Notes under the pieces: model-generated
Told to the model about the DNA's origin: nothing
Seen by the model: the letters and a program-made list of their open reading frames with translations, nothing else
The model's database searches: none
Program-made: the position numbers and the translations under genes
In this document: piece after piece, positions 276-19,704 of the stretch
Numbering within the stretch: the first letter of the stretch is position 1
Layout: each line of letters opens with the position of its first letter
From: Planctomycetia bacterium
GTDB taxonomy: Bacteria; Planctomycetota; Planctomycetia; Pirellulales; UBA1268
Direction of reading: 5' to 3'
Length of the DNA stretch: 41,604 nucleotides
Assembly: GCA_021414115.1 (NCBI GenBank)
Contig: JAIOPD010000040.1
Span: 1-41,604 of the forward strand

Positions 276-635
276 ATGCCCCAACTATCCACGCTTCCCC
301 TGACGCGGTGCGACTACGAGACGATTGCGGCCGTGATGGCCGCCGTGACGAGCCGTTGGCCAGTGGAGCGGATCATCCTGTTTGGCTCGAAGGCTCGCGG
401 TGACGATGAGCCCGACAGCGACATCGACCTGCTCGTGATCACGATCCCGGAGCTGGATCGGCAGGCCGAGGATGCCATGCAGGACGCAGCATGGGAGACA
501 GGCCTCGAGCATGGCCGGTGCGTGCAGCTGGTCATACGCTCGCACGAGCGGTGGTATCACGGCATTGACCAGGCGACTCCGCTCCGCCTGCAGATCGATC
601 AGGACGGCGTGGAGATCTTTCACCATGACGGGTGA
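276..635 (+). CDS. MNT-family nucleotidyltransferase (antitoxin of an MNT/HEPN pair)
   Basis: A 119-aa minimal nucleotidyltransferase. The signature GSKARGDDEPDSDID (residues 37-51) matches GS-x10-D-x-D of the MNT/MntA family, with G37, S38, D49 and D51 as nucleotide and metal-binding positions. In characterised MNT/HEPN systems the nucleotidyltransferase neutralises the HEPN RNase by AMPylation. It overlaps the HEPN gene at 625 by 11 nt, so the two are translationally coupled in the usual antitoxin-toxin order. No Shine-Dalgarno precedes the ATG, and a TAAAAT box (264-269) ends 7 nt before it, so a leaderless transcript is possible. Family call is firm; toxin-antitoxin function is inferred. 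Confidence 0.85.
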   Translation: MPQLSTLPLTRCDYETIAAVMAAVTSRWPVERIILFGSKARGDDEPDSDIDLLVITIPELDRQAEDAMQDAAWETGLEHGRCVQLVIRSHERWYHGIDQATPLRLQIDQDGVEIFHHDG

Positions 636-1038
636 GGAAGCTCGAGGCCGCACGATCGATGGCGAGTTGGCCCTGGCCCGGGAGTGCCTCCAGGAAGCCC
701 GATATGCGATTGAAGGAGGCTTCTTTCGGCTGGCCCGATCGCGGGCGTACTACGCGTGCTTTCATACGGCGACTGCTGTTTTCGCCGCCCAGGGAAAGGC
801 CTTTCGTCGGCACATTGGGCTGCAGGCCGCGGTGGACACCGAACTCGTCAAACCAGGGCTGGTGCCGCCGGAGTGTGCAGCATCGCTCAGGCGGCTCTAT
901 CAAGCACGGCTCCGGTCCGACTACGGAGACATCGCCCCCGCGTCGCGAGCCGAGGCCGATCAGGCCGTCGCCGACGCCGAAAAGATTGTTGCGGTGCTAA
1001 CGCCGCTCGCCTTCCGTGCAAAAGACGACGGCCACTGA
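625..1038 (+). CDS. HEPN-domain protein (probable RNase toxin partner)
   Basis: A 137-aa all-alpha HEPN protein. The segment SRAYYACFHTA (39-49) carries the family R-x(4-6)-H motif as R40-x6-H47, which forms the RNase active site in active HEPN toxins. It belongs to the AYYAxFHAA type rather than the DUF86/HepT type with R-x4-H-x-Y. The start at 625 lies inside the end of the MNT gene, and no longer start is needed because the upstream frame only shadows MNT. Gene order and overlap fit an MNT/HEPN toxin-antitoxin module. Whether it cleaves RNA or acts as a nucleotidyltransferase partner in another process cannot be told from sequence. Confidence 0.85.
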   Translation: MTGEEARGRTIDGELALARECLQEARYAIEGGFFRLARSRAYYACFHTATAVFAAQGKAFRRHIGLQAAVDTELVKPGLVPPECAASLRRLYQARLRSDYGDIAPASRAEADQAVADAEKIVAVLTPLAFRAKDDGH

Positions 1039-2318: not shown

Positions 2319-4352
2319 TCAGATTTCTAGGGCGCCAGTCGTTCGAGCTTCATCGCAGCCATTACGACGTCTCCACGGAAGGCACACGACGGTCGAGATC
2401 ATTGCGACGATGCCAGCAGCAGTGAGCACGAGGGCGACCTGTTGGGGCGTGGCGTGCCACTTTGCGAGGCATGCGAGATAAACGATCGCACAGGCGAGCA
2501 ACGGCACGACGACGGTCATCCGTCGCTGGGCGAGCTCGAAGTTCATGATGAAGAACGTAAGACTCAAGGGGCACATTCCCCACACCAACAGCCGCACGAG
2601 AGGCACGAGATCGGGGGAAGGATCGCCGCACAGGATCCGGAGAACGGTTTGGGCGAACAGACTGCAAAAGAGAGCCGTACCGCCGAGCACAACGCATGCG
2701 AAAATGATCGCCTTGCCGAGCGTGCGCCAGTTTGCGTGGGTCACCTGGCCATCGGACACGACTTTGGGAAACATCGCGGTTACGATGGGCTGCGGCAGGA
2801 AGAGGATGATCCGGCCCACCATCGCTGCAACGGCGTAGCGGCCCGCCTCGTCGGCGGCGAAGTAATGCTTCACGAGCACGACGTCTGCGTTCATGAGAAT
2901 CGCGTAGCCAACGTAGGCGAGGGCGTATTGCAGGCAGTATCGGTAGAACGCCGGTATCCGCGCCGGTGGCTCCCAGCCGCCGCCGAGTACATGTCGTACG
3001 CCCAGGAACGCCACGACGGCGACGACGCCCATCGACGCAGCATGTCCAAACAGGGCCCCGGCGGCGCCCCCGCCCAGCGCCACCAAGAGCACCGCCAGCA
3101 GAAGCCTGGCCAAGCTTCCGACAAACCCAACACCGGCCAGCCACGCAAACCCCTGGGCCCCCTGCAGGGCGCCCATGAAAGCGGCCCCGCCAAGGCTCAC
3201 CGCCACGGCGGTGATCGTGAGCAGGAGCGGAGGGCTCCCCTCGAGGTTGAAGTAGCGAAGCAGCGGGCCCGTTGCCACTGCCGCGAGCGACAGCAGCAGG
3301 ACCCCGCCCAACGATGCATCGCGCGTGACCGCAGAAACCAGGCCGCGCGCCTCGCGCACGCGCCCATCCTTGAGATACCCCGCGGTGAAGTAGGCTACGG
3401 CCCACGGCAACGCGGCCAGGGGCATGGTGATCACGGTGAACACGCCAAGCATGGCGACGAGCGTGCCGTACTCGGCGGCATCGAGCATCCGCATCATCGA
3501 CGCCTGGAAAAGCAGATTCGTGATGTTGGCAGCCTGCGCGCAGGCCAGCAGGATCACGCTGTGTCCGAACAGATGGTCCCGGCCCAGCCCCTTCGAATGA
3601 CTGAACGGGCCTAGCAGTCGGTCACACAGACCGACGATCCACCGCAACGGTGAATAGAGCAACCGCAGGCGGACAAGGGCCACCGCCATTTCGGCCGATG
3701 CCGGCAGGATGTCGATCTTGGATCCCGCGATGTCGTGCCACTCGGTGGGAACCTCGACGATCTTTCGGCCCGCGCGCTGCATCTGGAAGAGCAGGTCCAC
3801 GTCGAATGCCCAGCGCGTGATGCCAAGCTTGTCGAGGACCGGAGCGAGGGCGTCTCTCTTCATCAATTTCGCACCGCACTGCGTGTCGGTAAGTCGCAGG
3901 CCGAAGAGGAGCCGCGTCAGCACGTTGAAAACGCGCGAAGCGATCCGGCGTGTCAGCGGCTGCGGCGGGCTGACGATCGCGCCCCGACACCACCGCGACG
4001 CCACCGCCACGTCAGCGTCGCCAATGCGGTCGATGAGATCCTGAAATGCCGCGGGGGGCGTCGAGCCATCGGCGTCGACGAATCCCACGAGGTCGCCCCG
4101 TGCCTCGCGGAACCCGAGGATCAGGGCACCTCCCTTGCCGATCCCCCGCGGCTCGACGATGCAGCGAAGTTGAGGAAACCGCGCGCCATACTGCGCTACG
4201 ACCCCGGCCGTATCATCGGTGGAGCCATTGACGACCACGATGAATTCCACGTCGTCGCCGTAGCGCTGCGTGAAAAACGGCAGGTACGCATCGAGCATCC
4301 GCCCGATCCGTGCCTCCTCGTTATGTGCGGGGATGATGAGCGAAAGATTCAT
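2319..4352 (-). CDS. GT2 polyprenyl-phosphate glycosyltransferase fused to a MOP-family flippase
   Basis: A single 677-aa reading frame with two domains. Residues 1 to about 240 are a GT2 enzyme of the dolichyl/undecaprenyl-phosphate glucosyltransferase type: SLIIPAHNEE (4-13), NGSTDD (42-47), the metal-binding DAD (93-95) and WAFDVDLLFQMQRAG with the downstream EVPTEWHD. From about residue 255 to the end there are many hydrophobic helices typical of the Wzx/MOP polysaccharide flippases. The GT2 half should load a sugar onto a polyprenyl phosphate on the cytoplasmic face and the membrane half could flip it. I start at 4352 because MNLSLIIPAHNEE is the normal GT2 N-terminus; ATG-like starts up to 4463 would add unrelated sequence. 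It is transcribed away from the rest of the polysaccharide locus. Domain calls are firm; coupling of synthesis and flipping is inference. Confidence 0.85.
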   Translation of the reverse strand: MNLSLIIPAHNEEARIGRMLDAYLPFFTQRYGDDVEFIVVVNGSTDDTAGVVAQYGARFPQLRCIVEPRGIGKGGALILGFREARGDLVGFVDADGSTPPAAFQDLIDRIGDADVAVASRWCRGAIVSPPQPLTRRIASRVFNVLTRLLFGLRLTDTQCGAKLMKRDALAPVLDKLGITRWAFDVDLLFQMQRAGRKIVEVPTEWHDIAGSKIDILPASAEMAVALVRLRLLYSPLRWIVGLCDRLLGPFSHSKGLGRDHLFGHSVILLACAQAANITNLLFQASMMRMLDAAEYGTLVAMLGVFTVITMPLAALPWAVAYFTAGYLKDGRVREARGLVSAVTRDASLGGVLLLSLAAVATGPLLRYFNLEGSPPLLLTITAVAVSLGGAAFMGALQGAQGFAWLAGVGFVGSLARLLLAVLLVALGGGAAGALFGHAASMGVVAVVAFLGVRHVLGGGWEPPARIPAFYRYCLQYALAYVGYAILMNADVVLVKHYFAADEAGRYAVAAMVGRIILFLPQPIVTAMFPKVVSDGQVTHANWRTLGKAIIFACVVLGGTALFCSLFAQTVLRILCGDPSPDLVPLVRLLVWGMCPLSLTFFIMNFELAQRRMTVVVPLLACAIVYLACLAKWHATPQQVALVLTAAGIVAMISTVVCLPWRRRNGCDEARTTGALEI

Positions 4353-4682: not shown

Positions 4683-5798
4683 ATGAAACTCGGCTTCTAC
4701 AACTTTTATCGGCAATACAACGCCAACCGAATGTTTCAAACAGCCGATTACGGCATCGGGGACGACCTTGGTTTTCCCTTCGTCTACATGGCGAAATATT
4801 TCCAGCAGCGGGGATGGGGCCTTGCTACGATCGACACGGAACCAATCGAAAACTTCGATGCCGTCGTCTTCCTGGACTACCCCACGCTGCTCAACCCGCT
4901 GTTCCGCCGACTGTCACGCGCGAAAACGGTGCCCCTTCATCTTGTGCTGTTTGAGAGCCCTGCGATCCGCCCTGACAACTGGGTCCGGCGAAATCACGCC
5001 GCTTTTACCAAGGTCTTCACGTGGAATCCCGACTGGGTGGATGGCAAGAAATACATCCGCTTCCACATACCAAACAAACTTCCTGATCGCATCGACTACG
5101 CCCCCAGCACGGCGGACAGGTTTTGCTGCTTGATTGCGAGCCAAAAATACTCCTGGGTGCGCAAGGAGCTCTACACCGAGCGACTCCGAGCCATCCGCTG
5201 GTTTGAGCGGCATCATCCCACTGAATTCGACCTCTATGGTCAACGTTGGGATCGCTACTACCTCCGCGGCCGGCTCTCGTTCGCCAACCCGTTGCTCGCC
5301 CGGCTCTACCAGCGCTTTCCCAGCCTGCCTCGCCGGAGCGACTTCCCTTCAGCGCGGGGCGAGGTCGCCTCCAAGCGGACCGTTCTCCAGCGATATCGCT
5401 TTTGCATTTGCTACGAAAATGCCAGCTACCCCGGCTATCTGACCGAGAAAATGCTGGACGCCATGTTTGCAGGCTGCGTGCCGATTTATGAAGGCGATCC
5501 GGAAGTCACCCAGATCGTTCCCGCCGCGGCATTCATCGATAAGCGTCATTTTCACGACTACGATGCCCTGTATCGATATCTGAAGGGCATGTCAAACGGA
5601 GAGTACGAAGGCTACCGCAAGGCAATCCACGACTTTGTGCATGGCGAGCTTATTCGCCCGCTGGGCGCCGAGGCCTTCGTTGACACAATCGTTCGAGAAG
5701 TCGTCGAACCGCTCGCGCACCATTCGGCCATCGCCCACTCCGATCAAGACGATCGTCATTCAGGACTGAACTCACTCGCCAAAAATGGTCTCTCATGA
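4683..5798 (+). CDS. GT10 family fucosyltransferase
   Basis: A 371-aa glycosyltransferase predicted to transfer fucose (or a related deoxy sugar) from GDP-fucose in alpha-1,3/4 linkage. The diagnostic GT10 block lies at residues 240-271 and includes FCICYENASYPGYLTEKMLD, with E245, N246, Y252, E255 and K256 at the conserved nucleotide-sugar positions, followed by CVPIYEG. The N-terminal half (LGFYNFY, DLGFPFVYMA, LVLFESPAI) is the expected acceptor domain. ATG 4683 is chosen over a TTG nine bases upstream. The stop overlaps the next start (ATGATGA), so it is cotranscribed with the FkbM gene. The sequence looks less GC-rich than the housekeeping genes further on, which may reflect transfer of a glycan locus. 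No GDP-fucose synthesis gene is in the window. Confidence 0.88.
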   Translation: MKLGFYNFYRQYNANRMFQTADYGIGDDLGFPFVYMAKYFQQRGWGLATIDTEPIENFDAVVFLDYPTLLNPLFRRLSRAKTVPLHLVLFESPAIRPDNWVRRNHAAFTKVFTWNPDWVDGKKYIRFHIPNKLPDRIDYAPSTADRFCCLIASQKYSWVRKELYTERLRAIRWFERHHPTEFDLYGQRWDRYYLRGRLSFANPLLARLYQRFPSLPRRSDFPSARGEVASKRTVLQRYRFCICYENASYPGYLTEKMLDAMFAGCVPIYEGDPEVTQIVPAAAFIDKRHFHDYDALYRYLKGMSNGEYEGYRKAIHDFVHGELIRPLGAEAFVDTIVREVVEPLAHHSAIAHSDQDDRHSGLNSLAKNGLS

Positions 5799-6595
5799 TG
5801 ACAAATGGGTTCATAATGAGCGCCTTTCCTGCATTCCTCCCGTGGCGGGAATTGATGCCACCCGTCGTCGAAAAACTGCTGCAACGAATTCCATTTGGAG
5901 GCCATCGTCGCCACCCCTTTACGGCGTTTCCCGCCTCGCTCGATGCACGCGTGATCCTCGATGTGGGGGCAAACATCGGCCGAGTCGCCGAGGCAGGCTT
6001 ACGGACATATGCCCGCAGTGAGGTCCATTGCTTCGAACCCGTATCTGCAACCTTTGAAACGCTCAGCCGTCGGCTGGCCCGCTTCGGAGATCGCGTGCAC
6101 CTGCACAACTTCGCCCTTTCCGACCAGAACGGCGAAGCAGTGATCAATCTCACGAGCTTTCACGGCGCCAACTCACTCCATCCCCAAGCCGATCTCCACA
6201 AGCGACTGAATCCCCACGTCAGAGAACTCGGCACCGAACGCATTCGTCTGCAGCGGCTGGATGACCTTGCGGGGTCATTGCCGCCTTTCTGCGACATCAT
6301 GAAGATCGATGTCGAGGGGCACGAATTGCAGGTGCTCGAAGGGGGCGAAGCGTTTATCCGCGAGCGAGTCGACACGGTCCTCATCGAGATATCGCTGATG
6401 CGAGACCAATCGTGGGAACACCAGTGCGTCTTCGACATCTTTGCAATGATGAAGAAACTGGGGTTTGGCCTCATCAACGTGATCGACCTGCATCGTGCTC
6501 CACAGCCCGACATGATGCTCGTTCAGATGGATTGCCTGTTCCGAAACCACCGTCGACTGACGACACCGACTGTTCGAAATGGATCGCCGAAGTAA
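5795..6595 (+). CDS. FkbM family SAM-dependent methyltransferase
   Basis: A 266-aa class I methyltransferase. Motif I is ILDVGANIG (54-62), followed by VHCFEPV with the acidic residue that binds the SAM ribose, and the FkbM signature MKIDVEGHE with VLEGGE. Members of this family O-methylate sugars or polyketides, and in polysaccharide loci they usually cap or modify a sugar residue. It starts within the stop of the fucosyltransferase (4-nt overlap); internal ATGs at 5798 and 5816 are alternatives that would not affect the domain. Placed between two glycosyltransferases, it most likely methylates a residue of the same glycan. The substrate cannot be read from sequence. Confidence 0.88.
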   Translation: MMTNGFIMSAFPAFLPWRELMPPVVEKLLQRIPFGGHRRHPFTAFPASLDARVILDVGANIGRVAEAGLRTYARSEVHCFEPVSATFETLSRRLARFGDRVHLHNFALSDQNGEAVINLTSFHGANSLHPQADLHKRLNPHVRELGTERIRLQRLDDLAGSLPPFCDIMKIDVEGHELQVLEGGEAFIRERVDTVLIEISLMRDQSWEHQCVFDIFAMMKKLGFGLINVIDLHRAPQPDMMLVQMDCLFRNHRRLTTPTVRNGSPK

Positions 6596-6679
6596 TCACT
6601 CTTTCGGGCAAGCGCCGGCCCGGCTCAAGCCATTGAACGCCATGGCATGTGGCAATGTCCCTGTTGGACCGTTATCCGC

Positions 6680-7702
6680 ATGAGCAATCCCCTCGTTTCG
6701 ATCTGCATACCCACGTACAACCGGCTGGCGCTCCTACAGGCCGCAGTCCAGTCCTGCCTCGCCCAAACGTTTACAGACTTTGACATCGTCATCACGGACA
6801 ACAGCGATCGCGATGATTCGGAGCAGTGGGTTCGGCAACTGAACGATCCCCGCATTCGGTATCACCGCAACGAGCGCAATCTCGGGGGGGCGGGCAACTT
6901 CTCCAAGGCGATTTCCTTGGCGCGCGGGAAGTACGTGAAATTGCTCATGGACGACGACCTCATGAAGCCAGAGTTCCTCGCGCTCACCGTGGCGGCATTG
7001 GAAAAGCATCCGACCGCCGGTGTGGCCATGGCCCCCATGGATCTCATTGATGTGCACAGCGCGCCGATCACGCCTCGATTCTATTTGGTCAAGAGGATGC
7101 ATTATCGATACAGATATCGGGTGGGCGATGGCTTGATCGACCGAAAGACGCTACTGCGTGACTTCCTGACTCGTGATTACCCCTGCTGCGTTCCCAGTGG
7201 CGTGTTATTCCGCAAGGAATTCTTCGATCGATTCGGAGGCAATGACCCTGCCGCGGATTTTGGCCAAGACCTGGACTTGTGCATGCGGGCAGCCGTTCAT
7301 TACGACTTTTATTACATCGACCAGGTGCTTTCTTCGTGGCGCTATTTTCCTGAAAATCACACCGCCACATTGCACCGATCGGGCTATCCGATCCATGTCT
7401 TCTACTACATCACTCGCAAGATATTGTCTGATCCAGAAGCGAGGAGAATCTTCGCTGGAGAGAACTGGCAGAGGTTGGAACGACAAAGCTATTACTTTGC
7501 CAGCTGCCGGTGCTTGCTGAACCTTCAAGCCGCTTTGTTTCGGCACGATCCAAGGATCATCGCCTCGACTTTCGCAACGATCTGGCGGGAGGATCCGTAT
7601 CGGACCAACCTCTTGCGCCTGCCTTTTTCCGTGCTCGGTGAAGTGTGGACAGGGCTTTTTCCAGCGAAATTGCCGCCGCCCCCTCGGGACGGTTGTTTTT
7701 AG
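6680..7702 (+). CDS. GT2 family glycosyltransferase
   Basis: A 340-aa inverting GT-A enzyme. PLVSICIPTYNR (4-15) opens the nucleotide-binding fold, and VITDNSDRDDSE and LLMDDDLMKPEF (DDD at 91-93) supply the metal and donor-binding acidic residues. The later CVPSGVLFRKEFF and AADFGQDLDLCMRA match the acceptor-binding and catalytic-base region of rhamnosyl/galactosyltransferase-like GT2s. The start at 6680 is chosen because the fold begins there; an upstream start would add a Cys/Trp-rich stretch unlike the family. No transmembrane segment is evident, so it should act at the cytoplasmic membrane face during repeat-unit assembly. Confidence 0.87.
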   Translation: MSNPLVSICIPTYNRLALLQAAVQSCLAQTFTDFDIVITDNSDRDDSEQWVRQLNDPRIRYHRNERNLGGAGNFSKAISLARGKYVKLLMDDDLMKPEFLALTVAALEKHPTAGVAMAPMDLIDVHSAPITPRFYLVKRMHYRYRYRVGDGLIDRKTLLRDFLTRDYPCCVPSGVLFRKEFFDRFGGNDPAADFGQDLDLCMRAAVHYDFYYIDQVLSSWRYFPENHTATLHRSGYPIHVFYYITRKILSDPEARRIFAGENWQRLERQSYYFASCRCLLNLQAALFRHDPRIIASTFATIWREDPYRTNLLRLPFSVLGEVWTGLFPAKLPPPPRDGCF

Positions 7703-7820
7703 AGGCAACCCCTGAAGCGAGTTGGAGCGGGATGGTTATTTCGGCAACGCACGGCATTTCGTGCGGATCCGAGACCCCGTGCTACACTGCAAATATCCTG
7801 CTTTTACGGGGTCGGCCGAC

Positions 7821-8606
7821 ATGAAAGTGGTCATTCTTTGCGGTGGCAAGGGCACGCGACTTCGGGAAGAGACCGAATATCGCCCCAAACCGATGGTGCC
7901 GATCGGCGGAATGCCGATTCTGTGGCACATCATGAAGTACTACGCGCACTTTGGACACAAGGACTTCATCCTGTGCCTCGGTTACCGCGGTGACATGATC
8001 AAGGAGTTTTTTCGGAACTACCTGTGGAATGTGAGCGACGTGACACTGTCGCTCGGTCAGCGACCGTCGGTCCGATTCCATGACCATCACGATGAAGAAG
8101 ACTGGACCGTCACGCTTGCGGAAACGGGCGCGGATTCGATGACGGCGTACCGGGTTCGCCAGGTCCGACGCCACCTGGAGCCGGGTGAGCCATTCCTTCT
8201 GACTTACGGTGATGGACTCTCCACGATCGACATCAACGCTTCGATCTTGCAACACGACACGGCAGGGCGGGTGCTCACCGTGTCGGCCGTGCATCCCGCC
8301 GGACGTTTCGGGTCGCTTGCGATCGACGACCAGGGTCGCATCCATCGGTTCCAGGAAAAGCCTCAAATGGAGGCGGCATACGTGAATGGCGGCTACATGG
8401 TGTGCAGCCACGGAATTTTCGATTATCTGCCGGAAGACCCGTCGGTGATGCTGGAGCGGCAGCCGATGGACGCCTTGCTCCGCGATCGACAACTGCATTC
8501 GTATCGCCACGAGGGCTGGTGGCAGCCGATGGACACCTACCAGGAGATGCAGTATCTCGACGCGCTGTGGGCAGAGGGAAAGGCACCCTGGAAGGTCTGG
8601 GCATGA
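7821..8606 (+). CDS. rfbF: Glucose-1-phosphate cytidylyltransferase
   Basis: A 261-aa nucleotidyltransferase that makes CDP-glucose from CTP and glucose 1-phosphate, the first step to CDP-3,6-dideoxyhexoses. MKVVILCGGKGTRL with EETEYRPKPM is the RfbF form of the sugar-nucleotidyltransferase signature, and ILWHIMKYYAHFGH and LTYGDGLS with the metal Asp are typical. ATG 7821 gives the canonical N-terminus. The stop overlaps the rfbG start (ATGA at 8603). A 118-bp gap separates it from the GT2 gene, so a separate promoter is possible though none is convincing. The F-G-H order matches known dideoxyhexose clusters. Confidence 0.95.
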   Translation: MKVVILCGGKGTRLREETEYRPKPMVPIGGMPILWHIMKYYAHFGHKDFILCLGYRGDMIKEFFRNYLWNVSDVTLSLGQRPSVRFHDHHDEEDWTVTLAETGADSMTAYRVRQVRRHLEPGEPFLLTYGDGLSTIDINASILQHDTAGRVLTVSAVHPAGRFGSLAIDDQGRIHRFQEKPQMEAAYVNGGYMVCSHGIFDYLPEDPSVMLERQPMDALLRDRQLHSYRHEGWWQPMDTYQEMQYLDALWAEGKAPWKVWA

Positions 8607-9757
8607 CCGCCGTGGCCGAGGGCGCGCCGTTTCGAGGCATCTTTCACGGGGCCCGCGTGCTCGTGACGGGCCACACGGGCTTCAAGGGTTCTTGGCTCTG
8701 CCAGTGGCTACTCTCGCTGGGCGCCGATATCACGGGTTTCGCATTGGAACCGGAAACCTCGCCGGCCCTGTTCAGCCAATTACAGCTGGCGAATCGCCTG
8801 CGGCACATCGTCGGGGACATCCGGTGTGCCGACTCGGTCCATCGAGTTGTGGCCGACACACGTCCCGAATTCGTGTTTCATCTGGCCGCGCAACCGCTCG
8901 TGAGGCGGTCATACCGCGAGGCCTGCTACACGTGGGAAACGAACGTGTTGGGCACGGTGCACGTGCTCGACGCACTGCGGCGGCTTCCCGACCAGTGCGC
9001 GGCCGTCATGGTGACGACCGATAAATGCTACGAGAACCGCGAGATCCCTCACGGCTATTCGGAAACTGATCCGCTGGGCGGCCACGATCCCTACAGTTCG
9101 AGCAAGGCAGCGGCCGAACTGGCGATTGCTTCCTGGCGGGATTCATTCTTTGCCGCCGGCCATCCGGTGCGCATCGCCAGCGCGCGTGCGGGAAACGTGA
9201 TCGGCGGGGGCGATTGGGCCGAGGACCGGATCGTGCCCGATTCGATTCGCGCCCTTGCCCGTGGCGAGCCGATCCACGTGCGCAACCCGCACGCCACCCG
9301 CCCGTGGCAGCACGTGCTCGAGCCGACGAGCGGCTACATGGCGCTCGCCGCCGCGTTGCGGAAAAGTCCGGAGGATCGGCGACTGGTTTCGGCGTTCAAC
9401 ATCGGCCCCGGGCGGGAGGCCAACCAGCCCGTGAAGCGACTCGTGGAAACCGCACTCGAGCACTGGCCGGGAACGTGGACGAACGGCGCCGATCCGGCCG
9501 CCTTCCACGAGGCGGCTCTCCTGCAACTCGACAGCGGTAAAATCGAGTCGCTGGTCGGCTGGCGGCCGACGTGGAATTTTTCGGAGGCCGTTGAACGCAC
9601 GGTGGCCTGGTATCGAGACATGGAGATCGAGTCGCAGGGCTGCGCCGCTGACCGGACGATGCGCGACATCTGCGACTACGTGTCCGCCGCCACCCGGCAG
9701 GGAGTTTCCTGGGCTGCCGGTCGCCTGCCTCACCCTGCGAGCACCGCCGATGGCTGA
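8603..9757 (+). CDS. rfbG: CDP-glucose 4,6-dehydratase
   Basis: A 384-aa short-chain dehydrogenase of the extended class, converting CDP-D-glucose to CDP-4-keto-6-deoxyglucose with bound NAD+. It has [13 protein letters not shown] (19-31), [11 protein letters not shown], the TTDK block at 138-141 and the catalytic YSSSK at 164-168. [21 protein letters not shown] is a hallmark of CDP-glucose dehydratases and is present almost intact. It overlaps rfbF by 4 nt and rfbH by 8 nt. The extreme C-terminus beyond about residue 350 is variable and reads through the rfbH start region. Confidence 0.95.
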
Positions 9758-11192
9758 ACCCGCATCCGAGGCCGAACTGCGTGCGGAAATCCTGCGGCTC
9801 GTCCGCGAGTATGCGGGTCTCCGGCATGCTGGCTTCGCGCTCCCGGCGGCCGGTGATCCCGAAGGATTCACGCCCGGAGTGTCGCCCGTGCCGTATGCCG
9901 GGCGGGTATTTGACGCCGATGAAGTCGAAGCAGGCGTGGCATCGCTCCTAGACTTTTGGCTCACTCTGGGAGTGGAAGGCGAGGCGTTTGAGCGCGAGTT
10001 GGCCGCGATGCTCGGCGTTCGCAACTCGATCCTCGTCAACTCGGGATCGTCCGCAAACCTGGTCGCATTTTCCGCGCTGACCAGCCCGAAGCTGGGCGAT
10101 CGACGGCTCAAGCCCGGGGATGAGGTGATCACGGTCGCGGCGGGGTTTCCGACAACGGTCGCTCCGATCGTGCAAAACGGGTGCGTGCCGGTGTTCATCG
10201 ACAACGACCCCGCCACGCTCAACGCCCGCGTCGAGCAACTCGACGACGCCTACGTGCCCGGGAAAACCCGGGCCGTGATGATGGCGCACACGCTCGGCAA
10301 TCCCTTCGACGTGACGGCCGTCACCGACTTCTGCCGCCGGCACGACCTGTGGCTGATCGAAGACAATTGCGACGCGCTGGGGAGCACGTATGACGGCACC
10401 CTCACGGGCACGTTCGGAGACCTTTCCACGCAGTCGTTCTATCCGCCGCACCACATCACGATGGGCGAGGGCGGGGCGGTGAACGTGGTCCGAAACGCCG
10501 GCCTGAAGCTGCTCGTGGAGAGCTTTCGCGATTGGGGACGCGACTGCTGGTGCCCCAGCGGCAAGGACAACACCTGCAACAAGCGCTTCGGCTGGCACCT
10601 CGGTGAGCTTCCCGAGGGCTACGACCACAAATACATCTACACGCACCTCGGCTACAACCTGAAGCCGACCGACGTCCAGGCCGCCATCGGGCGGAAGCAG
10701 TTGCAGAAGTTTCCGGCCTTCGCCGCCGCGCGCCGCCGCAACTGGCACACGCTGCGGACGCTGCTCGACCCGCTGTCGGAATGGCTCGACTTCCAGCTGC
10801 CCACGCACGCGACGGCGTGGACGCAGGCTGGCTTCACCTGGGATTTCAGCGGCCACCGCAGCGAACCGTCGTGGTTCGGCTTCATGATCCGCGTGAAGCC
10901 TGGCAGCCCGGTTTCCCGCAGGGATCTGGCGGTCGCGCTCGACGACGCCAAGATCGGCAATCGCATGCTGTTTGGCGGTAATCTCGTGCGGCAGCCGGTG
11001 TTTGCGCAGGCCCGCAAGACGGGGGCATTTCCGATGCGGATCGTCGGCGATCTGGCGGGCGCCGATGCGATCATGAATGAGACGTTGTTCGTGGGCACGT
11101 ACCCTGGATTGCGAGAAGCCGCATGCGGCTTCATTGCCGGCACGATCGCGAAGCTGTATCGATGCCAATCAGTCGCTGTTCAGCCGCGGTGA
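9750..11192 (+). CDS. rfbH: CDP-4-keto-6-deoxyglucose 3-dehydratase (E1)
   Basis: A 480-aa PMP- and [2Fe-2S]-dependent enzyme that removes the C3 hydroxyl of CDP-4-keto-6-deoxyglucose. The aminotransferase fold is clear ([24 protein letters not shown]), but the usual PLP lysine is replaced by histidine in [14 protein letters not shown] (His234/235), as in E1. Cys207, Cys266, Cys268 and Cys276 ([12 protein letters not shown]) match the unusual cluster ligands of E1. E1 needs an NADH-dependent iron-sulfur flavoprotein (E3, RfbI/AscD type) for electrons, and none is in this window. The start at 9750 matches the family N-terminus, and upstream in-frame sequence is the rfbG shadow. Confidence 0.95.
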
Positions 11193-11198
11193 GGCCTC

Positions 11199-12119
11199 GT
11201 GAAACGGGTATTCGTTACCGGCGCGACGGGATTCATCGGAGAGGCGGTCTCGCGCCGCTTGCTTGCCGATGGCCACGAGGTCGCCGTCCTCGTCCGTCCC
11301 GAATCCTCACGATGGAGGCTTAGGCCGATCATCGACCGGATTCATGTGATATCCGGTTCCTGCGACTCACCAGCCATGTTTGCACGATCACTGGCAGACT
11401 TCTGCCCCGACACCGTAATACACCTGGCTTGGCACGGGGTGGGCGGTGTGCATCGCAATGATTCGGATCAGATTTGCAAGAACGTCTGCGGGTCGGTCGA
11501 GTTCTTTGAGACGGCGGCCAAAGCCGGTTGTCGTGTGTTCGTCGGAACTGGTTCGCAAGCCGAATACGGGCCCAGCCGCGACGTCTTGCACGAGCAGAGC
11601 CCGGCACGGCCCGTTACGGCGTACGGAGCAGCCAAACTCGCCACCTCCATTCTGCTGGCCCAGCGCGCCGCGCTGCACGACGTAGGATTCGCCTGGCTGC
11701 GCGTCTTTTCCGTGTTCGGGCCGGGAGACGACGCCGGAACACTGATGAGTTACGTCACCACGGAATTGCTGTCGCGACGCTGCCCCGCCGTCAGCAAGTG
11801 CGATCATGTGTGGGACTATTTGTTCGTCGACGACGCAGCAAACGCGTTCGTCGTGGCGGCGCAATCGCAGGCGACTGGCGTGATCAATGTCGCGTCCGGA
11901 CAAGCCGCTCCCCTGCGAGACATGATCTCCAGGGTGCGCAACGCGATCGATCCATCTCTGCCGATCGATTTCGGTGCGGTCGCTGAACCGCCGTCCGGAA
12001 CCTATCCACTTCAGGCCGATATCGACAGGCTGAGGGCACTGGGCTGGAGACCGGAGACGCCCGTCGATGACGCGATCGAACAGACTGTTTCTTGGTATCG
12101 TCATCGAGGTGCCGTCTAG
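11199..12119 (+). CDS. NAD(P)-dependent epimerase/reductase of an activated sugar
   Basis: A 306-aa extended short-chain dehydrogenase. FVTGATGFIGEAV (5-17) is the nucleotide-binding glycine motif, and VGTGSQAEYG with Y142 and K146 of TAYGAAKLA form the catalytic Ser/Thr-Tyr-Lys set. WDYLFVDDAANA and the late LGWRPETPVDDAIEQTV are typical of sugar epimerases and reductases. Start is GTG 11199, seven bases after rfbH, with GGTGAGG just before. In known pathways this position is held by the C4 reductase (abequose, paratose or ascarylose type) or, in yersiniose loci, the reductase of the branched side chain. Which role applies here is not decidable from sequence, but the downstream transketolase pair favours the second. 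Confidence 0.85.
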   Translation: MKRVFVTGATGFIGEAVSRRLLADGHEVAVLVRPESSRWRLRPIIDRIHVISGSCDSPAMFARSLADFCPDTVIHLAWHGVGGVHRNDSDQICKNVCGSVEFFETAAKAGCRVFVGTGSQAEYGPSRDVLHEQSPARPVTAYGAAKLATSILLAQRAALHDVGFAWLRVFSVFGPGDDAGTLMSYVTTELLSRRCPAVSKCDHVWDYLFVDDAANAFVVAAQSQATGVINVASGQAAPLRDMISRVRNAIDPSLPIDFGAVAEPPSGTYPLQADIDRLRALGWRPETPVDDAIEQTVSWYRHRGAV

Positions 12120-12141
12120 GCTTACCGCGGGATCACACGTC

Positions 12142-12960
12142 ATGACTCCTCAATGCTATCGCCCCGGCCCAGTCTTCGACCCCAAGGATCTGCGCCGCCA
12201 CATCCTGCGCATGGCGTTCCATGGACAATCGGTGCACGTTGCTTGCGCCTTTTCCTTGGTCGAGATCTGTTCGGTGCTGTACTCCCAGTTCCTGCGGTTC
12301 GATCCCATGAACGCGGTCAGCCCGGGCCGTGATTTCCTCATCCTCTCCAAGGGGCACGGCGTCATGGCTCTTTACGCGTGTTTCCGGGAAATTGGCTGGC
12401 TCAAGGACAGCGACCTGGACACGTATTTTCGCAACGGCACGCACCTACGAGGACTGTGCGAGGCCGACGTTCCCGGATGCGAAGTAACGAGCGGATCGCT
12501 CGGCCATGGCCTGCCGATCGCCGCAGGAATTGCGTTCGGCCTTCGACGTCTTGGTAGTGACCGTCGCGTGTATTGCATCGTCGGTGATGGCGAGATGAAC
12601 GAGGGGCCGATGTGGGAGGCGTTCCTTTTCGCAGCTCATCAGAAACTCGATAACCTTACAGTGATCGTGGACGCGAATCGGTATCAAGCAATGGGGCGAA
12701 CGGAGGAAGTTCTCGGGCTCGAACCCTTGCCAGCAAAAATCGAGGCATTTGGGTTCGCGACGAAAGAGTGCGATGGCCACGATCCGGAGGCACTCACCCG
12801 CTGCCTATCGGATCTGCGGGAGATCGGTTCTCGCCCTGGTGCTCTCGTGGCGCGCACGACGAAAGGGCAAGGAGTGTCGTTCATGGCGGACGACAATCGC
12901 TGGCACTACACCCGACTTACCGAACATGATTATTTACGGGCGGTGAAAGAGCTTTCATGA
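12142..12960 (+). CDS. Transketolase N-terminal subunit
   Basis: A 272-aa thiamine diphosphate-binding half-transketolase. Features: FLILSKGHGVMALYAC with the catalytic-region His, VTSGSLGHGLPIAAGIA, and the ThDP/Mg motif from GDGEMNEG (GDG 148-150) to VIVDANR (Asn179). It ends 4 nt inside the partner gene, so the two halves form an alpha/beta enzyme. It moves a two-carbon ketol unit. Location directly after rfbFGH and a sugar reductase, rather than with pentose-phosphate genes, suggests that the acceptor is a CDP-keto-sugar. ATG 12142 is chosen; the reading frame extends upstream only into the previous gene. Confidence 0.9.
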   Translation: MTPQCYRPGPVFDPKDLRRHILRMAFHGQSVHVACAFSLVEICSVLYSQFLRFDPMNAVSPGRDFLILSKGHGVMALYACFREIGWLKDSDLDTYFRNGTHLRGLCEADVPGCEVTSGSLGHGLPIAAGIAFGLRRLGSDRRVYCIVGDGEMNEGPMWEAFLFAAHQKLDNLTVIVDANRYQAMGRTEEVLGLEPLPAKIEAFGFATKECDGHDPEALTRCLSDLREIGSRPGALVARTTKGQGVSFMADDNRWHYTRLTEHDYLRAVKELS

Positions 12961-13895
12961 TGCGCGACATGCTTTCCCAGCTGTTGGTCGAAGCGGCCGC
13001 GGCCGATGACCGATTCATCGTCTTGTCGGGCGACCATGGTTACGCCTTGTTCGACTCGCTGCGGGACGGCCACGGTTCGCAGTTTGTGAACGTTGGCGTC
13101 GCGGAACAAAACATGATCGGTGTAGCGGCCGGGTTGGCGAAAGTTGGCTTCAGGCCTTGCGTCTACGGCCTCGCAGCGTTCGTGCCGATCCGTGTGCTGG
13201 AGCAGATCAAACTCGATCTGTGCCATGCCAAGGCACCTGTGATTCTCCTAGGCGATGGAGCCGGCTTGGTGTATTCCACGCTGGGCGTATCCCACCAATG
13301 CGGCGAGGACGTCGCCTGCCTGCGGCCGCTTCCGGCCATCGCGATCTACTCACCTTGTGATAAATTCGAGTTGCAAGCTTGCTGGGCCGAAGCTCGCCGC
13401 GCTGATCATCCGTGCTATATCCGAATCGGTAAGGCGGACCGTCCTCCCGTTCACGACGCGGCGATCACGGATACGGAACCCCACTGGACGAACCAACGCG
13501 ATGTGCACAATCACGACCGACTGATCGTTGCGACAGGATCGATGACGAGCATCTCCACAGCGATCGCGCGGACGCACGGCGTGCCGTGCTTGAGCGTGTC
13601 ACGAATCAAACCCCTACCACCGAGCCTCGTTTTGGCTGTTCAGTCCCACCGCCAGACGATCGTGGTCGAAGAACACGCCCGTGCGGGCGGTCTATTCAGC
13701 GCGTTGGCGGAGGAACTCGCCTCTGCCGAGTCGCCATCCGGCCGACCTCATCTTGCGCACCTCGGCCTATCCACTCAATTTACCTTCACGGCCGGCTCGC
13801 ATGAACATGCCCTTTCCGAGCATCGACTGGATGATGCCGCCGTGAACCGCAGCCTCACCGCCTGGATCACCGCAAGCCCAGGTCAAATGTCCTAG
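12957..13895 (+). CDS. Transketolase C-terminal subunit
   Basis: A 312-aa pyrimidine-binding and C-terminal half of transketolase. VNVGVAEQNMIGVAAGLA places the essential activating glutamate at E50, and GLVYSTLGVSHQCGEDVACL is the expected donor-phosphate and active-site loop, with SHQ in place of the usual THH-like segment. The C-terminal domain (LIVATGSMT, VVEEHARAGGLFSALAE) completes the fold. It overlaps the N-terminal subunit by 4 nt. Divided transketolases are common in bacteria and archaea, but this pair sits inside a sugar-nucleotide cluster. Related two-subunit enzymes add two-carbon branches to activated sugars in some antibiotic pathways. That role here is inferred from context only. 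Confidence 0.9.
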   Translation: MMRDMLSQLLVEAAAADDRFIVLSGDHGYALFDSLRDGHGSQFVNVGVAEQNMIGVAAGLAKVGFRPCVYGLAAFVPIRVLEQIKLDLCHAKAPVILLGDGAGLVYSTLGVSHQCGEDVACLRPLPAIAIYSPCDKFELQACWAEARRADHPCYIRIGKADRPPVHDAAITDTEPHWTNQRDVHNHDRLIVATGSMTSISTAIARTHGVPCLSVSRIKPLPPSLVLAVQSHRQTIVVEEHARAGGLFSALAEELASAESPSGRPHLAHLGLSTQFTFTAGSHEHALSEHRLDDAAVNRSLTAWITASPGQMS

Positions 13896-13925: not shown

Positions 13926-15833
13926 ATGAGAACGACCAAGTCGACAAAACAGGTTGCGGACCGCATGCCCGAAGACGTTCCAAACAATGCCGTACCAAGC
14001 GAGGGCAGGTTTCTCGCGAAGACCTGCGAATGGACTGTGTGCGTCGGCGTTCTCGTACTCACGGCCGTCATCTGGTGCGTCGCATACGGGAAGTTCTCCC
14101 CGTCATCGTGGGCGTTGCCCACGACGTATGTCGATCCCGTGTATTCCGACTTCCTCGCAACAGCCGGCCTCGTCAAGGCCATCAGCGAAGGATATTGGAT
14201 GCCCTTCGGCTGGAAAAAAGTCCCGCAACTGGCAGCGCCCGACGTGGCAAACTGGGGCGGATTTCCAACGACGGACGAGGTGGTGTTTTTGGTGTGTGGG
14301 CTGCTGGCGCGGCTGTGCGGGCTGTTTACCGGATTCAACCTCGCGTTGCTTTTCGGACATCTGGCCGCTGCAGCGACCTTCTATTTCGTCGCTACACGCT
14401 GGCTCCGCGCCACTCCCGCATGGTCATTCGTCGGGGGTCTCGCCTTCGGCCTCGCCCCCTACCTGTTTGCCGAATCGCCCCACCACATCAACTGCGTTTA
14501 TGCCTGGCATGTCCCGCTGTTTCCGATCGTGTGGACAGAGGTCGCCAGCGGCCAGGGGCTCCAGTGGCGGTCGAGATCGTGGTGGCAGGCGCTGGCCATC
14601 GCCTTCGTGACGGGGCTCTTCTTCCCCTACTACACGTTCGTCTTCTGCCAACTCACGCTCCTTGGAGGGGCGGTGGCCGCGTGGAAACAGCGGGCCCGAA
14701 CAGCGCTGCTGTCAGCCGCTGCGGTCGTCGCCGCCGCTGCCGCCGGTTTTTTTGTCTGCAACCTCGATACGCTCACGTATCGAATGGCTCATGAGTCCGG
14801 CGATGGACCGATCGTCGCCGAGAGGCAATACAAGTGGATGGATATTTACGGGTTCAAGCTCGTGGACATGTTCATCCCGTCGTTCACGCACCACTCCGAG
14901 ACGCTCGCAAAGTTTGGCATCGCGCACCGTCAGGCGTCGGTGCTGAACGACGAGGAGGGCTGCGCCTACCTCGGCATGCTCGGGATTTGCTGCCTCCTCG
15001 CGCTCGTGGCTGCCGCCGCCAAAGCCTTGCTCAATGACAACCTCGCCGCCGTGCCCATCCAGGCATGGTGGGTGCTCTGGATCGTGCTTTTCTTTAACAC
15101 TGGCGGACTCAACTCCCTGCTGGCCGCATTTACAGGGTTGACGCTCTTTCGCACGGCCTGTCGCTACAGCGTCGTCATTCTTGTGATCGCGTTGCTCTAT
15201 GGAGTACAGAGGCTCTCGCAGTGGCATCGCGACGCCACGGGCCGGACCCCCGCCGACCTGCTGCGCGTCGGAACTCTCACGGCGGCGATCTCGGCCTGCT
15301 TGGTTGTGATCTGGGATCAGGTGCCGCGGGCGCCTGCCGCCGAGCAAACGGCCCTGATCGCGAAACTCGTCGACTCGGACCGGGCGTTCGTCGGCAAACT
15401 GCAAGCCGCTCTGCCCGACAAAGCCATGGTCTTCCAGTTTCCGGTGATGGATGGCACGCCGCTGCCGGGCATTCCGTCATCCGACCATTACCGCCCGTAC
15501 CTCTACAGCTCGAGCCTGCACTGGTCGAGCGGCGCCCTCCCCGGCAGCGCGACGCTGCAGTGGCAGCAGGCCGTGCAGCAAACACTCGTCGCAGGTGCTT
15601 CCATCGACCAGCAGAGCAAGCAGGTGAAGTTCGACCTCGGCAGCGTGCGGCAGGCCGTCGAAGCGATGCGCAGCAAGGGCTTCGCTGCGATCTACGTCAA
15701 CCGCAACGGTTTCCCCGACCGAGGCAAGGGGCTCTTCGATGCCCTCGTCGAACTGGGCTACGAGACACCGCCGATCTACAGCCCGGCCGGTGATCTGGCC
15801 TGCCTCATTCTCAGTGACCGCCGTGCCGAATGA
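13926..15833 (+). CDS. Large multi-pass membrane protein, GT-C glycosyltransferase-like
   Basis: A 635-aa protein with about ten to twelve hydrophobic segments between residues 35 and 465, then a soluble C-terminal domain of about 165 residues. An acidic motif in the first external loop (VDPVYSDFLATAG) and a long early loop before the third helix are typical of GT-C glycosyltransferases, which use polyprenyl-phosphate-linked sugars on the outer face of the membrane. The C-terminal part (FVGKLQAALPDKAMVFQFPV and AAIYVNRNGFPDRGKG) looks like the soluble domain of bacterial YfhO/ArnT-like membrane proteins. It is last in the polysaccharide run, 30 bp after the transketolase. No family can be named firmly; a role as transferase or polymerase for the glycan is plausible. 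Confidence 0.6.
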   Translation: MRTTKSTKQVADRMPEDVPNNAVPSEGRFLAKTCEWTVCVGVLVLTAVIWCVAYGKFSPSSWALPTTYVDPVYSDFLATAGLVKAISEGYWMPFGWKKVPQLAAPDVANWGGFPTTDEVVFLVCGLLARLCGLFTGFNLALLFGHLAAAATFYFVATRWLRATPAWSFVGGLAFGLAPYLFAESPHHINCVYAWHVPLFPIVWTEVASGQGLQWRSRSWWQALAIAFVTGLFFPYYTFVFCQLTLLGGAVAAWKQRARTALLSAAAVVAAAAAGFFVCNLDTLTYRMAHESGDGPIVAERQYKWMDIYGFKLVDMFIPSFTHHSETLAKFGIAHRQASVLNDEEGCAYLGMLGICCLLALVAAAAKALLNDNLAAVPIQAWWVLWIVLFFNTGGLNSLLAAFTGLTLFRTACRYSVVILVIALLYGVQRLSQWHRDATGRTPADLLRVGTLTAAISACLVVIWDQVPRAPAAEQTALIAKLVDSDRAFVGKLQAALPDKAMVFQFPVMDGTPLPGIPSSDHYRPYLYSSSLHWSSGALPGSATLQWQQAVQQTLVAGASIDQQSKQVKFDLGSVRQAVEAMRSKGFAAIYVNRNGFPDRGKGLFDALVELGYETPPIYSPAGDLACLILSDRRAE

Positions 15834-17326: not shown

Positions 17327-18925
17327 ATGCTTCCCGGCGACCACAAATGGAATCGGTGGATTCTCGTGCGGCAGGCGGCGATTCTTGCCGGCATTACGCT
17401 GGCTGTCTTCTCGACCACGCTCTCGGCAGGCTTCGTGTACGACGCGAGGCTACAGATCCTGACCGATCCGTTTCTGCACGATCCGTGGAACTGGCCGAGC
17501 GTGCTCTCGTTCCGCGTACTCGGCATGGACGTGCTCGACTTCAACCGGCCGGTGCATCTGGCCTCGCTCATGCTCGATGCGGCCGTCTGGGGACGGGAGT
17601 CCTTTGGCTACCACCTTTCAAGCATCCTCTTGCACGCGTTGAACGTGGTGCTGGTGTGGCTGGTGGTGCAGGCGGTGTTGACGGGCCACGAGGAGCGACG
17701 CGACGAGGATGAGCCACAGACGAGCCGCTCGCTGGCGGCGTTTCTCGCGGCGCTCTCCTTTGCCGTGCACCCGGTCGTCGTCGAGGCGGTCTGCGAGCCG
17801 ACGTTTCGGGAGGACCTGCTGGCGGCGGCGTTTACACTCGGGGCGGTCGTGCTCGCAGCGGGACACGCCGCAGCGGCGGGGGCGGAGTCTCGTCGGGCGG
17901 TGGGCTGTGTGATCATGTGCCTGCTCGCCGTCGCCAGCAAAGAGTCGGGTGTCGCGGCGCCGGTCGTGCTCGCCGCTTTCTGGTGGCTCTTTCGCGGCGG
18001 CGAGCGGACCCGGTTCTGGAGCGTGGCGATCGGCGGCGGGCTTGTGCTCGTGGCGGCGTTTCTCGCAGCGAGATTTTTACTGGAGCCGTCGCCCTCGCGG
18101 ATCTTCGAGACAAAGCCCGACTACCCAGGGGGCTCGTTCGCCGAGGTGCTGAAGATCGAGCCCCGAATCCTGGCCCTTTATGCCCAGTTGATCGTCTTCC
18201 CGGTCAACCTCTGCGCCGACTACGGGCTCTACTCCGTCCGCCATCTGCCGCTCTGGGCCTCGCTCGTCGTGCTGGCAGTGCTTGGCTTGCTCGCAGCCTT
18301 CGCCGTGCGGCAGGACCGCCGCATCCTCTTTGGGCTGGTCCTGCTGCTCGGGCCACTCGTGCCGGTATCGAATCTGGTGCCGATCTACCGGGCCGCAGCC
18401 GACCGTTATCTCTACCTGCCGCTGGCCGGCGTGGCATGCATCGCCGCCTGTGTGCTCGATTCGGCATGGGCGGCGCGGAACGAACTCCGCCGGCAGACCG
18501 TGATGACGGGATCGCTGGCGGCGATCGTCGTGCTGGCAGCGATCTGCCTCGGCAGGCAGGCCGTGTGGGCGAGCCAGCTCGCGCTGTGGGAGAATACGTT
18601 CCAGCGAATCCCCACGTCGTATACCGCCGCGCACGGCTATTCCTCGGCCCTCCGCGCGGCAGGCAGGAACGAAGAGGCGGTGGCGTTGGCCCGACGGGCG
18701 ATCGAACTTTCTGACGGCAAGCGGGGCGATGCCTGGCTCACGCTGGCACTGGCGCTCGACGCTGCGGGGCAAGCGACCGAGGCCGACAAGATGACGGCCA
18801 AGGCGGTCGAGATCGATGGCCGGCTGGCCGATCCGGATGCCCGCGTCGCGGCGCTCGCGATGGAGCGGGACGAGGCGGAGGAAGTGAAGCGGATTCTGAC
18901 GCGAACGAGCAGCGCGATCCGTTAA
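17327..18925 (+). CDS. TMTC-like multi-pass membrane protein with C-terminal TPR
   Basis: A 532-aa protein with about eleven hydrophobic segments in the first 430 residues and tetratricopeptide-like helices at the end (AHGYSSALRAAGRNEEAVAL, DAWLTLALALDAAGQATEAD). The membrane part matches the TMTC/DUF1736 pattern: GFVYDARLQIL near residue 35, FNRPVHLASLMLD, GYHLSSILLHALNVVL, AVHPVVVEAV followed by FREDLLAAAF, and RAAADRYLYLPLAG. Animal TMTC proteins are O-mannosyltransferases that use dolichyl-phosphate mannose; bacterial relatives are uncharacterised. Its stop overlaps that of a DPM1-like synthase on the opposite strand. One residue of the usual diacidic YDD motif is changed (YDA), which may affect catalysis. 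Confidence 0.75.
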   Translation: MLPGDHKWNRWILVRQAAILAGITLAVFSTTLSAGFVYDARLQILTDPFLHDPWNWPSVLSFRVLGMDVLDFNRPVHLASLMLDAAVWGRESFGYHLSSILLHALNVVLVWLVVQAVLTGHEERRDEDEPQTSRSLAAFLAALSFAVHPVVVEAVCEPTFREDLLAAAFTLGAVVLAAGHAAAAGAESRRAVGCVIMCLLAVASKESGVAAPVVLAAFWWLFRGGERTRFWSVAIGGGLVLVAAFLAARFLLEPSPSRIFETKPDYPGGSFAEVLKIEPRILALYAQLIVFPVNLCADYGLYSVRHLPLWASLVVLAVLGLLAAFAVRQDRRILFGLVLLLGPLVPVSNLVPIYRAAADRYLYLPLAGVACIAACVLDSAWAARNELRRQTVMTGSLAAIVVLAAICLGRQAVWASQLALWENTFQRIPTSYTAAHGYSSALRAAGRNEEAVALARRAIELSDGKRGDAWLTLALALDAAGQATEADKMTAKAVEIDGRLADPDARVAALAMERDEAEEVKRILTRTSSAIR

Positions 18926-19704
18926 CAACCCAGCCAGGTGCGGCGGGCGAGCCTGAGCAGATCGCCGATGCTGCGGCGGGTCTCGGCGAAGTCGGCCTTG
19001 CTCGACCCGTGCGTGCGGTCGGTGAACGTGATCGGCACCTCGACGATGCGGGCCCCCGCACGGTGCAGTCGCCAGAGGAGGTCTTCCTGGAACGCGTAGC
19101 CCCGTGACTCGGGGGCCGCGATGCGATCGAGCAGCGAGAGACGAACCGCGCGAAAACCGCCCGAGCCGTCGCGGACCGGTACGCCGAGCACCCACCGCGT
19201 GAACCAGCAGACGAGACGGCTGGTGACTTCACGGGACAGCGGCCAGCCAAGCGTTTTTCCACCGGGCACGCGGCGGGAGCCGATGGCCAGGTCGGCAGGC
19301 GTGCCGCCCGGGGGTTCCATCGCGATGAGGAGCCGGGGGATGTCATCGGGATCGTGGCTCATATCGGCGTCCATGTAGACCGCGATTTCGAAGCCGCGGC
19401 GACGGGCCTCGTGGAGACCCTCGAGGATCGCGCTGCCGAGTCCGCGGCGTCCGTGACGGACAAGCACGTGGAGCCTTGGTTCCGTCGCCGTCTTCTCCAG
19501 GGCGATTTGGCCGGTGCCGTCGGGGGAATCGTCGTCGATGACGAGCATGTGGAGATCGGGCCGGGCCGCCAACACGCGGTCGATCAGCGTGGCGATGTTA
19601 TCGCGTTCGTTGTAGGTCGAGGCGTTGACGATGATCCGGCCTGCGGTCCATGGCTCGGCAGAGCGGGTATCGGATGCGGAGGATGGTTCAGATGGCGAAG
19701 CCAT
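18922..19704 (-). CDS. DPM1-like polyprenyl-phosphate glycosyltransferase (GT2)
   Basis: A 260-aa cytoplasmic GT2 enzyme of the polyprenol-monophosphomannose synthase group. It has IIVNASTYNERDNI (24-37), LVIDDDSPDGTG, YMDADMSHDP with the DAD metal site, GSRRVPGG, and GYAFQEDLLWRLHRAGARIVE followed by FTDRTHGSSK. This is the full DPM1 motif series, without the C-terminal membrane helices of longer homologues. It should attach mannose or another hexose to undecaprenyl phosphate. The first 22 residues are a Ser/Pro-rich extension. Gene order (20438 to 18922) makes it the second gene after the transglutaminase-like gene, 47 bp downstream. Its TAA overlaps the TAA of the TMTC-like gene in a shared TTAA. 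Confidence 0.88.
   Translation of the reverse strand: MASPSEPSSASDTRSAEPWTAGRIIVNASTYNERDNIATLIDRVLAARPDLHMLVIDDDSPDGTGQIALEKTATEPRLHVLVRHGRRGLGSAILEGLHEARRRGFEIAVYMDADMSHDPDDIPRLLIAMEPPGGTPADLAIGSRRVPGGKTLGWPLSREVTSRLVCWFTRWVLGVPVRDGSGGFRAVRLSLLDRIAAPESRGYAFQEDLLWRLHRAGARIVEVPITFTDRTHGSSKADFAETRRSIGDLLRLARRTWLGC

Follow-up and report, generated by a model that had tools for sequence, protein, structure and literature searches.

Gene organization around the fused gene

The window (the whole 41,604-nucleotide stretch analyzed, from the draft genome of a Planctomycetia bacterium) carries on its minus strand a gene (2319–4352) for a 677-residue protein in which a GT2 domain of the polyprenyl-phosphate sugar synthase type is joined to a predicted MOP flippase. 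Its frame begins with an ATG at 4352 and stays open until the stop codon at 2319. A GTG at 4463 is a possible upstream alternative start, though the alignment with relatives begins at the ATG. The adjoining GT10 (fucosyltransferase-family) gene (4683–5798, plus strand) is divergent from the fusion and opens a group of GT10, FkbM methyltransferase, and GT2 genes (4683–7702, plus strand; Pfam). These are followed on the plus strand by RfbF, a glucose-1-phosphate cytidylyltransferase (7815–8606, TIGR02623), RfbG, a CDP-glucose 4,6-dehydratase (8603–9757, TIGR02622), and RfbH of the CDP-4-keto-6-deoxyglucose 3-dehydrase type (9834–11192, NF011936), all three of which passed the NCBI curated cut-offs. 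Directly after them lie an NAD-dependent epimerase/reductase of the SDR type (11199–12119, plus strand; PF01370), a candidate for the last CDP-sugar step, and a transketolase-like pair comprising the N and C parts (12067–13895, plus strand; PF00456, PF02779, and PF02780), which may add a two-carbon branch to the CDP-sugar. Further on, the plus strand encodes a 635-residue multi-transmembrane (TM) protein (13926–15833) and a TMTC-like multi-TM protein with TPR (17327–18925; weak PF08409 and TPR matches), and the minus strand encodes a separate GT2 (18922–19704, PF00535) that appears polyprenyl-phosphate-mannose-synthase-like by inspection. At the left end of the contig, a nucleotidyltransferase gene (276–635, plus strand; PF01909, E = 4.7e-12) and a HEPN gene (640–1038, plus strand; PF05168, E = 2.3e-16) form a predicted MNT/HEPN-type toxin–antitoxin pair.

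The original prediction had described a GT2 that runs unbroken into a MOP-family flippase, and had named a frameshift or misjoin as grounds for discarding that description. Apart from the fact that the window genome is a draft in 144 contigs, nothing was found in favor of such an error. A 92%-identical fusion is present in an independent assembly from a different genus in the family of the window (L007 = G474 = G483), with the same gene order: GT10, FkbM methyltransferase, GT2, RfbF, RfbG, RfbH, SDR, transketolase-like pair, and 635-residue membrane protein. Because of this independent copy with the same neighbors, together with ten further fused genomes, we rule out a misjoin or missed frameshift as the source of the fusion and give it practically no weight.

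Structure prediction of the two halves

The GT2 half comprises residues 1–250 (3603–4352, minus strand), of which residues 4–169 match Glycos_transf_2 (Pfam, E = 3.9e-26). With a profile built from the GT2 halves of 25 relatives, the best PDB matches were dolichyl-phosphate mannose synthase (DPMS), ArnC, and cyanobacterial GtrB. The DAD motif at residues 93–95 (D93-A94-D95; 4068–4076, minus strand) is invariant. In the alignment with PfDPMS, D93, D95, R120 (3993–3995), R135 (3948–3950), and S139 (3936–3938; all minus strand) correspond to D89, D91, R117, R131, and S135, respectively, and none of the five varies among the 25 relatives. R117, R131, and S135 of PfDPMS bind dolichyl phosphate, and the counterparts of R131 and S135 are difficult to identify in GtrB (PMC5526996). 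Since both counterparts are present here, the GT2 half appears to be closer to DPMS than to GtrB in this respect. The half combines a GT2 fold carrying a DxD motif with the residues for the lipid phosphate, as in polyprenyl-phosphate sugar synthases. A polyprenyl phosphate as the acceptor of the predicted enzyme is well supported, because the acceptor-phosphate residues align with those of PfDPMS and are invariant among relatives. The original assignment to the Dol-P-Glc synthase type was correct as to a polyprenyl-phosphate sugar synthase; as for glucose, the conserved neighbors in the branch of the window point instead to a CDP-3,6-dideoxyhexose.

The second half, residues 251–677 (2322–3602, minus strand), is weakly recognized by sequence. 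Residues 266–529 match Polysacc_synt (PF01943) with E = 0.005, and this half matches PF13440 with E = 1e-4, both under the cut-off; five of 36 relatives match PF01943, with a best E of 2.7e-13. A sequence search of this half against the PDB gave no match, and only the fold search succeeded. Because sequence by itself gives no proof, the MOP assignment was made from structure. Modeled alone with 36 relatives, the half reached a pLDDT of 91.5 and a pTM of 0.90. Among solved structures, it matches WzxE best (Foldseek E = 5.7e-9; VIA-align Z 35.6, rmsd 3.0, 394 residues), followed by MurJ (Z 29.9) and then by MATE proteins. The model thus has the two-lobed fold of 12–14 TM helices that defines MOP proteins, and the second half is predicted to be a MOP-fold transporter with approximately 12 TM helices. 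D490, K495, P529, and K530 of this half are invariant in the fused proteins.

The model of the whole protein, built with 12 fused relatives, has a mean pLDDT of 83, and a low-confidence linker with pLDDT below 50 spans residues 250–261 (3570–3605, minus strand). In a fold search with the whole model, one half retrieved ArnC, DPMS, and GtrB, and the other half retrieved WzxE and MATE proteins. A C-terminal half outside the MOP family had also been named as a ground for rejection and is contradicted by the clear MOP fold of the model. The proposed domain search of both halves recovered Glycos_transf_2 in the N-terminal half and MOP families weakly by sequence and clearly by fold in the other. 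The original observation is therefore confirmed as one open frame in which both folds are present as predicted models.

Distribution and history of the fusion

Of 387 genomes from the phylum to which a Lentisphaerales MAG belongs, 69 had strong relatives. Ten of these genomes contain the fusion; with the window and G474, the search for GT2-MOP fusions elsewhere, which had also been proposed, brought the total to 12 fused genomes. Most other relatives examined encode the GT2 (approximately 255 residues) and the flippase (approximately 425 residues) side by side, and the two genes often overlap by 4 nt (ATGA). In the tree of the flippase half, the fused proteins form two groups with split forms between them: group A (the window, L127, and L089–L094) and group B (L097–L100). 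To explain this tree, the GT2 domain must have been joined twice and lost once. A tree constrained to a single clade of fusions was rejected (AU test on the flippase half, p = 3e-42), which rules out a single origin; according to the flippase sequences, the join arose at least twice. The tree of the GT2 half is weakly resolved and has two changes of state. It places L094 with group B, possibly owing to domain exchange or to a long-branch error.

Within the family of the window, a close MOP half was found in only 3 of 72 genomes, and most genomes of the genus of the window do not have the fused gene. Genome G030 represents a third genus of this family and encodes the flippase alone (L032, 7619–9034, minus strand). 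Its flippase is nested in group A, where it pairs with those of the window and G474 at full support in the flippase tree. The N-terminus of this protein is a GT2 tail that corresponds to window-protein residues 218–250, and upstream of the gene no GT2 is left. The G030 flippase is best read as a former fusion that lost its catalytic domain, because the tail is retained, the protein is nested among fusions, and the upstream GT2 is absent.

The cluster proteins of the window and G474 are 75–96% identical, compared with 79% for hisD, suggesting that the cluster moved horizontally between the genera. Misbinning of the window contig is unlikely, as the window hisD is 91% identical to that of a genus mate and 79% identical to that of the other genus. 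Among plasmids, no match spanned the fusion, and only GT2 halves were matched, in Deinococcus and Halobellus. No report of a GT2-MOP fusion was found in a literature search that covered mainly open-access papers.

Neighboring genes for a candidate glycosyltransferase partner and for the predicted sugar

The original prediction had called for a search for GT-C enzymes near the fusion. We defined a partner ORF as one of at least 400 residues with at least five hydrophobic segments, no more than 50 nt from the GT2–flippase pair. Of the 29 loci, 21 contained such a large multi-TM ORF, mostly immediately upstream of the GT2, compared with 1.3% for random 2-kb blocks of the same loci. Among the 26 adjoining multi-TM proteins, seven matched PMT_2, four matched YfhO, and two were GtrII-like, some of them weakly. 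In the CsbB/GtcA/YfhO system, the GT-C is YfhO (PMC7389260). Alignment A3 was rejected as a pure set of GT-C candidates because one member resembles amino-acid permeases and K-Cl cotransporters; hence at least one adjoining protein is a permease and no GT-C, and the adjoining proteins are not all GT-C enzymes. Synthase and flippase are encoded together (fused here and adjacent in most relatives examined), and GT-C-type genes directly adjoin the pair in relatives. This arrangement fits a three-component system.

Among the clade-A fusions, an adjoining GT-C is found only in L089. The two candidates in the window lie 9.6 kb (the 635-residue protein) and 13 kb (the TMTC-like protein) from the fused gene. 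GT-C-type genes are the usual partners of the pair in relatives; in the window itself, the nearest candidate, at 9.6 kb, is a putative GT-C with no Pfam GT-C match. Neither a sequence search against the PDB nor a profile comparison with the GT-Cs of relatives, for which few sequences were available, supported this 635-residue protein as a GT-C. Its G474 counterpart is 85% identical, and those in G030 and G451 are about 60% identical; the protein is encoded by 40 of the 72 genomes of the family, and the majority of these do not have the fusion. In G451, a distant MOP flippase adjoins the relative of this protein. In two family genomes beyond that of the window (L107, 7100–10715; L108, 9364–13338), the relative adjoins a distant stand-alone MOP flippase. 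Because of this adjacency in L107 and L108, the family of the 635-residue protein may itself be linked to flippases.

The rfbFGH genes lie beside six of eight clade-A fusions (the window, L127, L090, L091, L092, and L093); they are absent from the other two and from all 25 other loci with the pair. The linkage is significant by locus (Fisher p = 2.5e-5) and with one row per lineage (p = 0.003, about three lineages). The three genes follow the fusion on one strand in L090 and L091, arranged as fusion-rfbF-rfbG-rfbH with short gaps. A ferredoxin-reductase-type protein, the kind required for 3-deoxygenation, is additionally encoded in L092 and L093. The product of the RfbF–RfbG–RfbH route is CDP-4-keto-3,6-dideoxyglucose. 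Based on the conserved linkage and this known product, the cargo in group A is probably a 3,6-dideoxyhexose, perhaps branched, and we are less sure of this than of the other assignments; the linkage could also reflect co-transfer without functional coupling.

Discussion

We propose that the two-domain protein opens a three-component glycosylation system by performing its first two steps. Judging from its fold and invariant acceptor-phosphate residues, the cytoplasmic GT2 domain would load undecaprenyl phosphate with one sugar taken from a nucleotide-sugar. The fused MOP domain, by its fold, would move the lipid-linked monosaccharide to the periplasmic leaflet, where a GT-C, of the kind whose genes adjoin the pair in relatives, would transfer the sugar onto a glycan or protein. 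The fusion would stand in for the TM anchor of GtrB and DPMS and keep synthase and flippase together. The direct hand-over of the lipid-linked sugar suggested in the original prediction is conceivable. In the branch of the window, the conserved linkage suggests that the adjacent RfbF–RfbG–RfbH route supplies the CDP-sugar donor. On balance, we favor the reading that the protein supplies a periplasmic GT-C with a sugar, perhaps a 3,6-dideoxyhexose, which it links to undecaprenyl phosphate and flips. The narrower version is tentative; in it, a self-contained synthase-flippase loads undecaprenyl phosphate from a CDP-3,6-dideoxyhexose or its branched derivative and passes the product to its own MOP domain, and a GT-C would add the dideoxyhexose in the periplasm rather than in the cytoplasm ahead of flipping.

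One alternative to this narrower version differs in the sugar only. The same two-step protein could use UDP-glucose or another common nucleotide-sugar, with rfbFGH feeding a different glycosyltransferase in the cytoplasm. This possibility falls within the favored reading, so our confidences in these readings do not sum to one. The GT2 half is presumably Dol-P-Glc-synthase-like, as the original prediction also read it, the other glycosyltransferases of the cluster (GT10 and GT2) could take a dideoxyhexose, and two clade-A fusions do not have rfbFGH. However, rfbF-rfbG-rfbH directly follow the fusion on one strand in L090 and L091, and the linkage spans two bacterial groups, persisting at flippase-half identities of about 37–41%. 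We regard a common donor as quite possible, though we do not expect it. The strongest rival (ALTERNATIVES) casts the MOP half as the cluster's ordinary Wzx, a flippase for Und-PP-linked repeat units; the GT2 would extend the lipid-linked unit by a sugar, and the fusion would only couple assembly with export. The fused gene adjoins O-antigen-type genes, and WzxE is the closest solved fold. In the 95%-complete assembly, the fusion is the sole match to PF01943 and the sole match to PF13440, both under the cut-off, and a phosphoglycosyltransferase (PF02397) is encoded elsewhere in the genome, on contig C61 only. No Wzy was identified in the window. This rival does not account for the polyprenyl-phosphate acceptor residues of the GT2 half, for polyprenyl-phosphate sugar synthases as its best solved matches, or for the GT-C-like genes adjoining the pair in relatives. 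The gene is missing from most genomes of the genus, and the polysaccharide might be exported by another route, because ABC-2 transporter genes are present in the genome. We consider an ordinary Wzx role doubtful.

The MOP half could also have lost transport and serve merely as a membrane anchor or dimerization module, as its MOP-family sequence matches are under the cut-off and other polyprenyl-phosphate GT2s have TM anchors. Yet the whole MOP fold is retained across 394 residues, the invariant residues of the fused proteins include D490, K495, P529, and K530, and G030 has kept its flippase after losing the GT2, which an anchor alone does not explain. Such a role is therefore very improbable.

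The recurrent natural joining of a lipid-sugar synthase to a MOP protein points to the flippase through genetics alone, and synthesis and flipping become measurable together in a single polypeptide. The split, fused, and GT2-less relatives provide a natural series for the effect of the fusion. If the rfbFGH linkage reflects function, it would connect the CDP-sugar route with the periplasm as a new site of 3,6-dideoxyhexose addition. If the protein is a dideoxyhexose synthase-flippase, the MOP family would serve Und-P-monosaccharides in bacteria.

The window protein shares the GT2 fold and DxD motif with DPMS from Pyrococcus furiosus (5mlz), GtrB (5ekp), and ArnC (9bhc), and the three acceptor-phosphate residues with DPMS. 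The membrane part of these enzymes consists of a few anchor helices, whereas the window protein has a complete predicted MOP transporter. Its MOP half shares the fold of the lipid III flippase WzxE and of MurJ over about 394 residues; these are stand-alone proteins for Und-PP-linked oligosaccharides or lipid II, while the predicted cargo here is an Und-P-monosaccharide. In Salmonella-type O antigens, 3,6-dideoxyhexoses are added in the cytoplasm. AglR of Haloferax volcanii is Wzx-like. AglD, AglR, and AglS of this organism act as a Dol-P-Man synthase, a proposed Dol-P-Man flippase, and an outside-acting transferase, respectively (PMC3871713). They have the same three roles, a likeness drawn from roles alone without sequence comparison, but are archaeal and encoded by separate genes. 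Citrobacter youngae adds a side chain in the periplasm from Und-P-ribofuranose through a flippase and a GT-C; unlike the GT2 of the window, its synthase is related to the mycobacterial DPPR synthase, and its flippase ORF14, though called MATE, is a 4-TM ArnE/EmrE-like protein, so we dropped it as a precedent for the MOP flippase of the window (PMC11127046). The Gtr (GtrB/GtrA/Gtr(type)) and CsbB/GtcA/YfhO systems likewise combine a polyprenyl-phosphate sugar synthase of the GT2 type with a flippase and a GT-C, and YfhO-like or PMT-like genes lie beside the pair in relatives. As the original prediction had pointed out, Gtr-type systems have a small separate flippase, GtrA; GtcA is likewise small, whereas the flippase predicted here is a MOP protein with 12 TM helices that shares one polypeptide with the GT2. 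The locus is therefore no classical GtrA/GtrB/GtrC system, and its gene arrangement fits a three-component system with two parts fused, in which a MOP flippase replaces GtrA.
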